NCBI RefSeq assembly: GCF_900111455.1
Contig: NZ_FOIE01000003.1
Coordinates: 62,001-126,000 of the forward strand
Source of the DNA: Geodermatophilus poikilotrophus
GTDB lineage: Bacteria > Actinomycetota > Actinomycetes > Mycobacteriales > Geodermatophilaceae
Length of the DNA: 64,000 nucleotides
Direction: 5' to 3'
This document shows, in pieces, positions 24,000 to 62,915 of this stretch; the stretch's first letter is position 1; every line of letters starts with the position of its first letter. The notes below the pieces were generated by a model, which saw only the letters and a program-made list of their open reading frames with translations, was not told the DNA's origin and made no database searches. The translations under genes and the position numbers were made by a program.

Positions 24000-24116
24000 G
24001 CCGTGAGCGCCGATGGCCCCGTCCCGGGCAGGCTCCGTCGAGGGGCTCGCCGGGGCCCTTCTACGGTGAGGAGGACGGGGTCCTGCTCCGGAGGGTGGGG
24101 AGGACGGGGTCCTCCC
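24000..24116. repeat. dispersed GC-rich intergenic repeat (copy c)
   Basis: The gap between two converging genes contains GAGGACGGGGTCCT twice (24070-24083 and 24101-24114), each a GAGGAC/GTCCT-type hairpin, plus CTCCGTCGAGGGGCTCG. The block ends CCTCAGG at the facing gene's stop, as in copies a and e. Probably a bidirectional terminator. Confidence 0.55.
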
Positions 24117-49317: not shown

Positions 49318-49500
49318 GCCGACGGCGCCTCCCGTCGGCCCCGTTGCAGGGAGGAGGACCCCGTCCCCCTCACCGTGGAAGGACCCCGTCCTCCCCACCC
49401 TTCGCAGGCTCAGGGCGGGACCCGAGACGGGGCCTCGCGGCGAGCCTCTGTACGGGGCCTGGCGCGAGCTCACGAGCGGCGGGGGCGAGGGGGTCCCTCC
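49318..49500. repeat. dispersed GC-rich intergenic repeat (copy g), longest example
   Basis: A 183-nt block between converging genes with several family units: GGAGGACCCCGTCC, AAGGACCCCGTCCTCC, TCGCAGGCTCAGGGCGGGACCC, TCGCGGCGAGCCTC and GGCGCGAGCTCACGAGCGG. Several segments are mutually complementary. It looks like two copies back to back. No gene is seen in it. Confidence 0.6.
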
Positions 49501-57581: not shown

Positions 57582-57703
57582 CGCGGCACCCTACGGAGGC
57601 GCCGCCGACTCCGCGCGCGACGTGCGGAGAGGCCACTGCGGCACGACCGGTCGCACGGGGGCAGACTCACGGGTGCCCGACGGTGACGAACGAGGAGGAC
57701 CCC

Positions 57704-58915
57704 GTGCGCGATGCGGTCATCTGCGAGCCCCTGCGGACCCCGGTCGGTGGCTTCGGCGGCTCCCTGCGCGACGTGCCGGTGCAGGAGCTCGCGGCCACGG
57801 TGGTCCGTGCGGTGGTGGAGCGCACCGGGCTGCCGCCGGAGTCGGTGGACGACGTCCTGCTCGGGCACTGCTACCCGACGATGGAGGCCCCGGCGCTCGG
57901 CCGGGTCGCCGCGCTGGACGCCGGGCTGCCGGTGACCGCCTCGGGCATCCAGCTCGACCGCCGCTGCGGCTCGGGCCTGCAGGCGGTGCTGTACGCGGCG
58001 ATGGCGGTGCAGTCGGGCAGCTCGGACGTCGTGCTGGCCGGTGGCGCGGAGTCGATGAGCAACGCGCCGTTCTACTCCACCGCCATGCGCTGGGGCGTCA
58101 AGGCCGGGCCGGGTGTGCTGCTGCAGGACGGCCTGGCCCGCGGCCGGGTGACCGCCGGAGGTCAGCACCACCCGGTGCCCGGCGGGATGCTGGAGACGGC
58201 GGAGAACCTGCGCCGGGAGTACCGGATCAGCCGCGAGGAGCAGGACGAGTACGCCGTCCGCAGCCACCAGCGGGCCGCCGCCGCGGCCGAGGCGGGCCGG
58301 TTCGCCGACGAGATCGTGCCGGTGACGGTCAAGCAGCGGAAGACCGAGGTCGTCGTCGACCGCGACGAGCACATCCGCCCGGACTCCAACGTCGAGACCC
58401 TCGCCAAGCTGCGCCCGATCATGGGCCGGGACGACCCGGAGGCCACCGTCACCGCGGGCAACGCCAGCGGGCAGAACGACGGCGCCGCGGTCTGCGTGGT
58501 CACCTCGCCGGAGAAGGCCGCCGAGCTCGGCCTGCGCCCGCTGGCCCGGCTGGTGTCCTGGGCGGTGGCCGGCGTCCCGCCGAAGACCATGGGCATCGGC
58601 CCGGTGCCGGCCACCGCCAAGGCGCTCGCGCTGGCCGACGTCAAGCTCGCCGAGGTCGACCTCATCGAGCTCAACGAGGCGTTCGCCAGCCAGGTGCTGG
58701 CGGTGACCCGCGAGTGGGGCTTCACCGACGCCGACTTCGAGCGGACCAACGTCAACGGCTCGGGTATCTCGCTGGGCCACCCGGTGGGGGCCACCGGCGG
58801 GCGCATCCTGGCGACGCTCACCCGCGAGATGGCCCGCCGCGACGCCCGCTACGGGCTGGAGACGATGTGCATCGGCGGCGGCCAGGGCCTCGCCGCCCTG
58901 TTCGAGCGGGTCTGA
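57704..58915 (+). CDS. acetyl-CoA C-acyltransferase (thiolase)
   Basis: 403 residues. Active-site Cys88 in LDRRCGSGLQ, the GGAESMSNAPF block, and NVNGSGISLGHPVGATGGR with catalytic His, plus METMCIGGGQGLAALFE with the second Cys near the C-terminus. Condenses or cleaves acyl-CoA (acetoacetyl-CoA formation or beta-oxidation). GTG 57704 is preferred because GAGGAGG stands 6 nt upstream; the in-frame GTG 57683 lies before that site. It is followed by an SDR of the acetoacetyl/3-oxoacyl reductase type. Confidence 0.92.
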   Translation: MRDAVICEPLRTPVGGFGGSLRDVPVQELAATVVRAVVERTGLPPESVDDVLLGHCYPTMEAPALGRVAALDAGLPVTASGIQLDRRCGSGLQAVLYAAMAVQSGSSDVVLAGGAESMSNAPFYSTAMRWGVKAGPGVLLQDGLARGRVTAGGQHHPVPGGMLETAENLRREYRISREEQDEYAVRSHQRAAAAAEAGRFADEIVPVTVKQRKTEVVVDRDEHIRPDSNVETLAKLRPIMGRDDPEATVTAGNASGQNDGAAVCVVTSPEKAAELGLRPLARLVSWAVAGVPPKTMGIGPVPATAKALALADVKLAEVDLIELNEAFASQVLAVTREWGFTDADFERTNVNGSGISLGHPVGATGGRILATLTREMARRDARYGLETMCIGGGQGLAALFERV

Positions 58916-58985
58916 AGAGGACCCCCTACCCCCCACCGCTCGCGAGCTCGCGGCGGGACCCTCCAGGGGGCCAGCCTTCCCTTCG
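58916..58985. repeat. dispersed GC-rich intergenic repeat (copy i)
   Basis: A compact copy within the thiolase-SDR pair: GAAGAGGACCCCCTACCCCC, then CGCTCGCGAGCTCGCGGCGG with a central CGCGAGCTCGCG palindrome, then GGACCCTCCAGGGGGCC and AAGG-type flank. Same order of blocks as copy d. Confidence 0.6.
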
Positions 58986-59773: not shown

Positions 59774-61141
59774 TCAACCCGCCGGTCGCAGCCACTGCCC
59801 GGCCAGGGCCGCGTCGACCGTCCGGGCCCACCGCTGCACGTCTTCGGCCGTGCGCCCCGGCGGCGGGCTGGCGCAGCTCTGCTCGACCAGTGCGTCCCGT
59901 TCGTGCCGGAGGGCCTCACGCTGCAGTGGCGTGTGGGCCCGCCACGCCACCTCGGCCAGCAACCCGAACAACCGGTCGACGACGGTGAGGTCCTCCCGGC
60001 CGTAGTGGCGGACCTGGGTCACCCCGAGGTCCAGCAGCTCGGGGAAGGTCCAGGACCGCAGGACCAGCCGCTCGGCGCCGTCCTCGTCGGTCAGCCGGCG
60101 GTGCCAGGTGTCCCGCACGGCCGCATCGCCCAGCAGTGCCGAGACGTGCGAAAGCGCGTGCCCGGCGGTCGTCGGGTCGTTGATGCCGGGGGAGAGGGCC
60201 CGGGCGGCGATGTCCACCAGTTTGCGCAGCCCGTAGCTGGGATCGGCGACGTCGCCCCGCTCGTGGCCCAGGTCGACCGAGCGTTGCAGCGCCCCCTCCA
60301 GCTCATCCACCGGGACGGCGTCCCCGGCGCCCTGCGGCCACGCCCAGGCCATCGGGGCGCCGGCGACGACCGGGTCCCCGGGGCGCCGGTCGAGCAGCAG
60401 CACGGCGCCGCAGCCGGTGACCGCCTCGAGCAGCGGACCGTCGGCGACCTGTACGAGGAAGCCGCTCGACCGCGCGCACAGCGGGCGGGCGCTGCCGGGG
60501 ACCTCCGGGAGCGGACCGTCGGGCTGGTCCCCCTGGCGCTCCTGCAACCGCGCCCGCGTGCGGGAGGACTCGTCGTGGACGTCGCGCATCATCGTCTCGA
60601 CGCGGAGCTGGCGGGTCTGGTGGCTCAGGAAGGTCACCAGGGCCGCCACGGACGCCAGCATCAGCAGGAACGCGACGGTGACCGAGATCCGCGGGACGAA
60701 CGAGCTGCCCTGGGCCTCGTCGGCCGAGCGGACGGTGCGCAGCACCACCAGCGCGTAGACGAAGGTGCCCAGCAGCACGCCCAGACAGGTCTGCACCACC
60801 CGATCGCGGACGAAGGTCTGCAGGAGCCGGGGCGAGTACTGGCTGCTGGCCAGCTGCAGGGTGACGATCGTCAGCGAGAAGAGCAGCGTCGTCGCCGAGA
60901 TCAGCGACGAGGCGATCGCCGAGAGGAGGGTGCGGGCAGCCGACGGTCCGCCGGTGAACACGAAGCGGATCGGGTCGTCGCCGAAGGCCAGCTCCTGGTC
61001 CAGCTCGGTGAGCCCGATGCCGAGCCCCACGGCGGCGAGGATCGCGGCGGCGGGCAGCGGCCACAGCGCCCCGCTGACTGCTCCCCGCAGCGCCTCTACG
61101 CGTCCCCCGCGCGGCCTCGACGTCACAGGGCCCCACCTCAC
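59774..61141 (-). CDS. DUF2254 membrane protein
   Basis: 455 residues. Four membrane helices in the first 200 residues (WPLPAAAILAAVGLGIGLTEL; SAIASSLISATTLLFSLTIVTLQLASSQYSPRLLQTFVRDRVVQ; LGVLLGTFVYALVVLRTV; ISVTVAFLLMLASVAALVTF) contain the DUF2254 hallmark SQYSPRLL..F. The C-terminal half is soluble with KLVDIAARALSPGINDPTTA, also diagnostic. Function unknown. GTG 61141 overlaps the upstream DUF1206 stop (GTGA), so it is the last gene of a three-gene membrane-protein operon. Confidence 0.88.
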   Translation of the reverse strand: MRWGPVTSRPRGGRVEALRGAVSGALWPLPAAAILAAVGLGIGLTELDQELAFGDDPIRFVFTGGPSAARTLLSAIASSLISATTLLFSLTIVTLQLASSQYSPRLLQTFVRDRVVQTCLGVLLGTFVYALVVLRTVRSADEAQGSSFVPRISVTVAFLLMLASVAALVTFLSHQTRQLRVETMMRDVHDESSRTRARLQERQGDQPDGPLPEVPGSARPLCARSSGFLVQVADGPLLEAVTGCGAVLLLDRRPGDPVVAGAPMAWAWPQGAGDAVPVDELEGALQRSVDLGHERGDVADPSYGLRKLVDIAARALSPGINDPTTAGHALSHVSALLGDAAVRDTWHRRLTDEDGAERLVLRSWTFPELLDLGVTQVRHYGREDLTVVDRLFGLLAEVAWRAHTPLQREALRHERDALVEQSCASPPPGRTAEDVQRWARTVDAALAGQWLRPAG

Positions 61142-62079
61142 GTCGACGGGTCGCGGTCGGGGTAGCGGGCGCGGGCCAGCGCGTACACGCCGAACGCGGC
61201 GAAGCCGGCGGCGACCGCGCCCAGCAGCCAGGGCCCGGCGTCGACCGATGCTATGGCGGTCATCGCGCCGTCCAGGCCGGTGGCGGTGGAGACGTCGGCG
61301 GTGGCAGCCGCCTGCCACAGCAGCACTCCCACCAGGCCGAACGCGACGCCCTTGGCGACGTAGCCGACCCGCCCGACCGCCTCGATCACCGGCTCCCAGC
61401 GGTCGGGGGCGGTGGGCAGGTCGATGTCCTTCATGAAGCCGCCGGTCAGCCCCCGCACCAGCGTGTAGAGCCCAACGGCGACCACGCCGGCCGCGACGAG
61501 GAGGACCAGCGCCGCCCCTCCCGGCACCTCCAGCGTCTCACCGGTGAGCTCGCGCAGCCGCTCGTCGGCCTCGTACTCCAGGCCGAGGGCGAACAGCAGC
61601 CCGGTCGCCCCGAGGACGGCGTAGACGGCCGCCTTGGCCAGGCACTTCGCGCAGACGAACGCCGTCCGCAGGACGTGCCGGCGGTCGAGCAGCCCCCGCC
61701 ACCACAGCAGCACCTCCCCGGCCTGCCACAGCGCCAGGCCCAGCATCCCCAGGCCGATCAGCCAGAGCAGCACCGTGCCGCCCGGCGTGCCGGCGACCGC
61801 CTGCAGCGCGCCGGTCTGGTCGGCGTCGGTGCGGGCGCTGCCGCGCGCCAGCTGCGCCGCCAGCCAGCCGATGAGCAGGTGCAGGACGCCGTAGGCGATC
61901 AGGCCGACCCGGGCGACCGCCTCGAGCACCGGGTGGTCGGTGACACCACGGGCGGACTCGACCAGCCGGTGGATCCAGCCCCGTTGCAGGAGGAGGACCC
62001 CGTCCTCCGCGCCGTTCGCGGGCTCACGGTGAGCCACTGGACGGGACCGCGAGGGGCGGGGGGCAGGGGGGTCCTCCAT
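61138..62079 (-). CDS. DUF1206 membrane protein (second paralogue)
   Basis: 313 residues with about six membrane helices in three similar hairpins, each opened by an 'R-V-G-(Y/L)-(I/V)-A-Y/K-G' unit (VARVGLIAYGVLHLLIGWLA; VGRVGYVAKGVAFGLVGVLLW), the DUF1206 signature. The start ATG 62079 overlaps the stop of the first paralogue by one base. The first 35 residues (MEDPPAPRPSRSRPVAHREP...) are encoded by a copy of the dispersed repeat and are absent from the paralogue. GTG 62037 is an alternative start. Function unknown. Confidence 0.85.
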   Translation of the reverse strand: MEDPPAPRPSRSRPVAHREPANGAEDGVLLLQRGWIHRLVESARGVTDHPVLEAVARVGLIAYGVLHLLIGWLAAQLARGSARTDADQTGALQAVAGTPGGTVLLWLIGLGMLGLALWQAGEVLLWWRGLLDRRHVLRTAFVCAKCLAKAAVYAVLGATGLLFALGLEYEADERLRELTGETLEVPGGAALVLLVAAGVVAVGLYTLVRGLTGGFMKDIDLPTAPDRWEPVIEAVGRVGYVAKGVAFGLVGVLLWQAAATADVSTATGLDGAMTAIASVDAGPWLLGAVAAGFAAFGVYALARARYPDRDPST

Positions 62080-62915
62080 CAGGTGCGCTCGGGATAGCGG
62101 GCGCGGACGAAGCAGTAGGCGCCGAACGCGGCGATGCCGACGGCAACCAGCGTCAGCAGCACCCGGCCGAAGGGGGCGCCGAGGATGGTGCGCAGCGCAC
62201 CGTCCAGCCCGGTGGCCCGGGCCGGGTCGAAGGTGACGGCGGCGTAGACCAGCAGCCCGCCCACCACGCCCAGCGCCACGCCCTTGGCGGGGAAGCCGAC
62301 CTGTCCCAGTCGGGTGACCAGCCGGGTCGTCTGCGGGGAGGCCGAGCCCAGCTCGACCTCCTCGAGGAACCGCTTCGACACGCCCTTGTGCACCAGGTAG
62401 GCGCCGACGCCGATGACGACGAGGCCGACGAGCGCCACGAGCCAGCGTCCGGCCGGCCAGCCGAAGACGCCGGCCGCCGACTGCTGGCCCCCGCTCGAGC
62501 CTCCGCTGGTCGCGGTGCGGACGGCCAGCACGGCGAGCACCAGGTAGAGGACGGCCTTGGCGACCGACTTGACGGTCTTCTCCAGGGCCTTCTTCCGGGC
62601 GTCCCCGGACGACGACAGCGGGCTCCGCCAGCGCAGCACCTCGGCCGCCTGCCAGGCCGCGAGCGCGACCAGCCCGACGGCGAGCAGCCACAGCAGCGGC
62701 CGGCCCAGCGGCTGCTCGGCCAGCGTGGCCAGTGCGCCGGCCTGGTCGGCGGACTCGCCACTGCCCCCACCCCAGGCCAGCTGGAGTGCCAGCCAGGCGA
62801 GCAGCAGGTGGACCACGCCGTAGGCGATCAGCCCGACGCGGGCCAGGTGCTCGAGGGCGTCGCTGTCGCCCGCCCGGCCCGCGGCTCCCGCGGCGCGCCC
62901 CGTCGTCCCGCTCAT
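62079..62915 (-). CDS. DUF1206 membrane protein (first paralogue)
   Basis: 278 residues with about six membrane helices. ARVGLIAYGVVHLLLAWLALQLAWG and LGQVGFPAKGVALGVVGGLLVYAAV mark the repeated DUF1206 units, ending with FGAYCFVRARYPERT, nearly the same end as the second paralogue (FGVYALARARYPDRDPST). Both thus arose by tandem duplication. ATG 62915 has GGAGGAG about 7 nt upstream. Function unknown; probably an integral membrane protein acting with the DUF2254 product. Confidence 0.88.
   Translation of the reverse strand: MSGTTGRAAGAAGRAGDSDALEHLARVGLIAYGVVHLLLAWLALQLAWGGGSGESADQAGALATLAEQPLGRPLLWLLAVGLVALAAWQAAEVLRWRSPLSSSGDARKKALEKTVKSVAKAVLYLVLAVLAVRTATSGGSSGGQQSAAGVFGWPAGRWLVALVGLVVIGVGAYLVHKGVSKRFLEEVELGSASPQTTRLVTRLGQVGFPAKGVALGVVGGLLVYAAVTFDPARATGLDGALRTILGAPFGRVLLTLVAVGIAAFGAYCFVRARYPERT

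Follow-up and report, generated by a model that had tools for sequence, protein, structure and literature searches.

A hairpin repeat of the Geodermatophilaceae probably read as the N-terminus of a DUF1206 protein in Geodermatophilus poikilotrophus

The DUF1206 gene pair and its junction

The window, by which we mean the whole 64,000-nucleotide stretch of G. poikilotrophus DNA analysed here, contains two neighbouring DUF1206 genes on the reverse strand. The downstream gene (61138–62079, reverse strand) specifies a 313 amino acid protein from an ATG at 62079–62077, which overlaps the TGA (62081–62079) of its upstream paralogue (62079–62915, reverse strand) in the sequence TGATG. The protein is an ordinary member of the DUF1206 family (PF06724; 159.8 bits against a gathering score of 26.2; E-value=1.7e-47), with three matched stretches. 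It departs from the family in its N-terminal 34 residues, which precede the best matched stretch (residues 58–120) and derive from a repeat.

The centre of this repeat is a 54-bp hairpin core of type 1 at 61995–62048 on the forward strand, inverted relative to the genes. It is matched by our covariance model R1 with 66.8 bits (E-value=3e-11 in the window), this copy being one of the 44 from which the model was built; a 20-mer of the repeat matches exactly at 61988–62007. From comparison with a related genome (G022), the core appears to be flanked by the arms of a type-2 element, giving a composite at 61978–62076 (reverse strand; outer arms read by eye) that looks like one element copy nested within another. 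The 34 codons from the ATG through the element (MEDPPAPRPSRSRPVAHREPANGAEDGVLLLQRG) occupy 61978–62079 (reverse strand), the right-hand limit again being placed by eye. An alternative GTG start at 62035–62037 (reverse strand) lies within the element, and is the one preferred for the downstream gene by a simple codon-usage gene caller.

A preliminary description of this DNA had placed three repeat-family blocks between the coupled ATG and the conserved DUF1206 part, and had noted that the paralogue lacks the extension. The blocks were found at those positions and comparison bore out both observations; the extent then given, 61981–62078, was refined to approximately 61978–62076. Elsewhere in the window a further copy was located at 58919–58972 (forward strand), 3 nt after the stop of a called gene (57683–58915), and additional tandem or nested copies are found at 24015–24112 and 49356–49496.

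The repeat family

Searching the genome of this strain with the 20-mer, allowing up to three mismatches, revealed 96 forward and 100 reverse sites, against 8 and 6 for a reversed control pattern. Copies were sampled from 864 kb, comprising 40 stretches of 20 kb and the window; since many of these stretches were picked because they held pattern hits, densities from this sample are not unbiased. Forty-four copies of 54 nt were aligned for structure, after removal of one chance coding match (L068:8917) before the alignment (A2). The element begins GGACC, contains a conserved loop (TCGCRRGCTC) and ends GGCC, with an outer and an inner stem.

The family is real and structured, and its core covaries in both stems. 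Stem cells were paired in 96.7% of cases, against 86.6% in shuffles, and structures slid along the alignment paired in only 34.5–55.9%. Changes on both sides of a pair were seen in 71 stem cells, against 17.2 in shuffles. Because outer-stem pairing was the rule by which copies were chosen, the outer-stem counts are biased; the inner stem, which played no part in the selection, is the unbiased portion, and five of its seven pairs show both-side changes. The fold energy of the window copy was no better than that of shuffles (z=−0.88), and among five junction elements, including this core, z ranged from −2.61 to +0.55.

Model R1 located 127 copies in the 864 kb at an E-value of 0.001 or less, 67 of them 54 nt long and most others 52–58 nt. 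It also matched in all 26 genomes of the genus set (the window genome, G000, and 25 others), with at least 150 matches in G000, and at E-values up to 1e-4 in 101 of 112 Geodermatophilaceae genomes, representing nine of 12 genus codes. All three forward frames are open in 113 of the 127 copies, mostly an effect of GC content; forward frames were slightly more open than in shuffles (366 versus 358.4, sd 3.2) and reverse frames less so (326 versus 336.1, sd 5.4), differences that again mostly reflect GC content. No description of a hairpin repeat of the Geodermatophilaceae was recognised in the open-access literature searched.

Position of the copies relative to genes

Gene context was taken from 808 genes called by simple codon usage in the 864 kb. 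Five of the 127 copies fall within called genes; 106 follow a gene on the same strand. Fifty-three are situated between convergent genes, 61 between co-directional genes (52 in the gene direction, nine against it), six between divergent genes and two at stretch ends; for comparison, all gene pairs divide into 362 co-directional, 136 convergent and 129 divergent. The position is sharp: 68 copies have an upstream stop no more than 8 nt away, and 43 of these start precisely 4 nt behind it. The base before the stop is C in 56 of the 68 genes with an adjacent element, against 488 of all 808 (Fisher p=8e-5), and CTGA occurs within 8 nt upstream of 54 of the 127 copies. This context suggests that the element may choose its target, though nested and internal copies in other contexts argue against a strict CTGA rule.

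The DUF1206 junction in related genomes

The downstream gene is present and adjoins its paralogue in 23 of the 26 genus genomes, and the element occupies the junction in ten of these. Four more element-bearing junctions occur among another 42 distinct ones, mostly from Blastococcus and Modestobacter, so that 14 of 65 distinct orthologous junctions carry it (17 duplicate rows having been dropped). The comparison of filled and empty junctions suggested in the preliminary description finds both states.

Offsets are given below in nucleotides from a reference codon of the downstream gene. Of the 13 genus junctions without the element, nine have a GTG at −54 and three a GTG at −39 to −48; in the remaining one, that of G019, no standard start follows the upstream stop, and an in-frame CTG lies at −69. 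In the element-bearing junctions, G014 excepted, the old GTG start outside the element is gone and a start lies at the edge of the element or inside it. The edge ATG or GTG is at −129 in G000, G023 and G012, −87 in G022, −102 in G004, G002 and G008, −108 in G025, −93 in G011, and −90 in L106 and L108. Within the element these last two have further starts, at −54 and −51; L114 and L132 have one at −84 inside it, plus later ones. G014 retains GTG −54 behind its elements; this junction (L021/L124) holds tandem copies of half an element. Another genome has a third DUF1206 paralogue, which contains an in-frame TAG (G001:C23:130716-131504).

G022 has a single type-2 element, and G000, G023 and G012 have a second element within it, making them 42 nt longer. 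On the gene tree the presence state changes 13 times, a figure that is not an insertion count, since the tree comes from two genes only and is partly weak (18 of 62 inner branches open) and the composite shared by separate branches may reflect recombination. Gain of the element at the junction appears the likelier direction, as the common spacer and GTG −54 are retained in several neighbours that lack the element.

The element in other reading frames

Comparisons at other loci indicate that the repeat family is translated there as well. In a gene at L061 6331–8265, whose product has PF01261 and glyoxalase matches and which we take to be a dehydroshikimate dehydratase, the element specifies residues 7–24. 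In element-free genomes this protein begins at a GTG overlapping the end of the upstream gene, or at a start nearby; where the element is present, in nine genomes, it separates that start from the protein body. The distance from stop to body was 1 mod 3 in all 18 loci, even though the nine element-bearing loci have eight different lengths (64, 67, 79, 82, 85, 91, 118 and 181); the chance of such frame retention would be (1/3)^8=1.5e-4 if the lengths were independent, which is optimistic given shared descent. These counts cover one locus in each of 18 genomes, leaving out a second copy in G013 and weak matches in other genomes; the G009 gene was matched in two pieces and that of G017 has one internal stop.

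The second case is a membrane-protein-like gene (L053:14725–15708) that has no Pfam match; a nested element adds approximately 50 residues to its product. The segment from KVAGIG..L to AVLTTG was found by the search pattern in 17 of 24 loci, being 10 or 13 residues long in eight of them and 29, 29, 30, 30, 31, 43, 62, 62 and 94 residues in the other nine. The model finds the element in eight of these nine (G000, G001, G009, G018, G004, G025, G015 and G012), and E-values fall below 0.001 in eight genomes; it has no match at this site in G023 (31 residues), and in G008 one with an E-value of only 0.076. The step from G009 (43 residues) to G000 (62) looks like nesting. Both flanks are conserved and coding here, so the element stays within this protein whichever start codon is used.

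The frame used differs from gene to gene (GAC-CCC, GGA-CCC, AGC-ACC). By our reading eight of the 127 copies lie in open reading frames, some as candidates only. Further candidates are the N-terminus of a Tad protein (L089) and a NuoE-like protein (L067, PF01257). Two other genes of this genome, one for a pentapeptide protein (L065:7553) and one that is by our own reading regulator-like (L050), begin at TGATGG, and are ambiguous because each also has a start just behind the element. Two called genes, L069 8889–9563 and L087 2622–3305, are candidates at the opposite end of the protein: their last 19–20 residues would be read from an element on the opposite strand, at whose edge the stop is situated.

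Substitutions and predicted structure of the tail

Differences at the first, second and third codon positions of the element region were counted in six pairs of sequences that share the insertion, giving 7, 6, 7 (G000 and G023); 7, 10, 13; 6, 9, 14 (G023 and G012); 4, 6, 6; 3, 6, 7; and 5, 0, 1. The downstream gene displays a clear third-position excess (17, 22, 48 and similar). Since there is little or no such excess in the element, its codons do not independently point to translation. These comparisons show the frame and length of the element to be kept and the peptide not, the latter showing little purifying selection.

An AlphaFold model built with 37 sequences (mean pLDDT 87.7) predicts no secondary structure in residues 1–26, with pLDDT block means of 58–66 across residues 1–30, and a helix from residue 27. 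Residues 1–26 would thus be a tolerated, unstructured tail. As the model and our reading of the alignment have it, the last residues of the element, VLLLQRG, replace the native LLDR turn before HRLVE.

Origin of the N-terminal extension

We propose, with a probability of about 0.8, that a post-stop hairpin came between the two DUF1206 genes, that the old GTG start was lost, and that the ATG at TGATG is now used, the 34 element-encoded residues being translated as a tolerated, unstructured tail. The hairpin would have inserted between the neighbouring genes, and a second copy would then have nested in the first. A T follows the TGA, and the left edge of the element therefore reads TGATGG, with an ATG that overlaps the stop; ribosomes finishing the first gene may re-initiate there and, the element being open in the ATG frame, would translate it entirely. 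Judging from the substitution pattern, the element is probably tolerated because it fits the frame and not for a selected peptide. Comparison of the genomes showed the presence or absence of the element in relatives, its position behind stops, its frame compatibility and the absence of the old start (G014 excepted).

Two other proposals place the start codon elsewhere. The stretch separating the element from codon +21, which lies within the conserved RxVTDxP motif, is free of ATG, GTG and TTG in six of 14 element-bearing junctions, G000 included, against one of 51 element-free junctions, in which 140 nt were searched (Fisher p=2e-4). With no standard start available there, the element most likely supplies both the start codon and the 34 residues, and the view in the preliminary description that the repeat is read as the DUF1206 N-terminus is thereby supported. 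We consider it improbable that the hairpin is untranslated intergenic DNA, with translation starting downstream of it or right at its end, from CTG −39 or −15, ATC −24 or GTG +21. The weak or absent coding signature of the element would suit that explanation, as would the in-frame CTG codons at −39 and −15, which follow the core in G000 and G023, and the CTG of the element-free G019; in G012, however, the core is followed by an ATC and by no CTG. A GTG at +21 is present in G000, G012, G022 and L108, but absent in G023 and G011, where the next starts are at +42 and +66, and it is an unlikely start because it lies just behind invariant residues of RxVTDxP: its use would drop R44, V46, T47, D48 and P50, none of which varies among the 37 aligned sequences. 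A GTG at −24 is usable in seven other element-bearing junctions. Against an untranslated hairpin also stand the in-frame copies of the same family at two other loci and the retention of the stop-overlapping ATG in G000, G023 and G012 while GTG −54 was lost; over the 129 nt from this ATG to the reference codon (approximately 27 of them native) these three genomes have no indel or stop. A start at GTG 62037, with only part of the element coding, seems slightly less probable still. It was chosen by the codon-usage caller, but G023 and G012, two genomes with the same composite, retain the ATG and have no equivalent GTG. The preliminary description had named this codon as a downstream start that would speak against its interpretation; being itself inside the element, it would still have part of the element translated.

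An explanation compatible with translation of the repeat, to which we give somewhat less than even odds, is that the element is kept for a role in RNA, the hairpin behind the stop slowing ribosome release or protecting the upstream message, with coding as a by-product. The start of 43 of the 68 near-stop elements exactly 4 nt after the stop, the preference for the rear of same-strand genes with so few copies between divergent ones, and the covariation in the stems would agree with such a role; for E. coli, PMC12306157 reports lowered translation where a REP is fewer than 16 nt from a stop. The patchy occurrence of the element at the DUF1206 junction, where close relatives are without it, speaks against this role. 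An error of assembly or annotation is hardly conceivable: no point in its favour was found, and the same composite occurs in the separate genomes G023 and G012.

Relationship to known repeats

The Rickettsia palindromic elements, described in PMC10969869 as short palindromic repeats found in frame in unrelated genes, with Rickettsia named as a striking case of such elements inside proteins and nearly half of them in open reading frames, offer the nearest parallel. The present element likewise occurs in frame in unrelated genes (the dehydratase and the membrane protein by comparison, the DUF1206 gene likely), but it is typically 54–56 bp against approximately 150 bp, has a far smaller share of copies in open reading frames (8/127) than the portion cited for Rickettsia, uses several frames without one open reading frame or conserved peptide, and is hosted by a GC-rich actinobacterial family. 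REP sequences, as outlined in PMC12306157, are stem-loops with a common consensus, mostly extragenic near gene ends and 14–40 nt long in E. coli. Our family resembles them in its many copies, its palindromic stem-loop with a consensus and its mostly extragenic location, and differs in being longer than the E. coli elements and in having some copies in reading frames. A GTAG tag is the mark of REP sequences; GTAG was found within 8 nt upstream of only eight of the 127 copies, and membership of the GTAG-tagged REPs was rejected. A GC-rich hairpin at gene ends also recalls intrinsic terminators, but no T run follows it (TTTT within 12 nt in none of the 127 copies, at least four T among the first 8 nt in one), and this assignment too was rejected. 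A known Rfam family was likewise discarded, there being no match over the gathering score in the window or to the copies in four 20-kb copy-holding stretches. The sole Rfam match in those stretches was a c-di-AMP riboswitch (RF00379, 60.1 bits) at L088 19629–19777 (reverse strand) of this genome. The closest known kind are the protein-coding palindromes of Rickettsia, which the element resembles in how it works and from which it differs in size and in lacking a conserved peptide; most copies behave like post-stop REPs.

A bolder picture, which we offer as speculation and consider doubtful, is that of a mobile hairpin inserting behind CTGA and so landing on stops, whose edge, NGGAGGACC, carries a latent start codon (TGA + TGGA = TGATGGA). 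At tight junctions it would regularly turn spacers into N-terminal extensions, lengthened stepwise by nesting, and so act as a frame-compatible selfish element adding peptides across a whole bacterial family.

Implications

What emerges in this GC-rich actinobacterial family is a hairpin repeat that is sharply positioned after stop codons and has entered reading frames repeatedly. For gene calling, predicted extensions starting MEDP or VKDP in Geodermatophilaceae may be element-derived. Two junctions and one internal site occur in empty, filled and partly nested states in close relatives, which makes the birth of N-termini, the turnover of start codons and the tolerance of element peptides directly testable.
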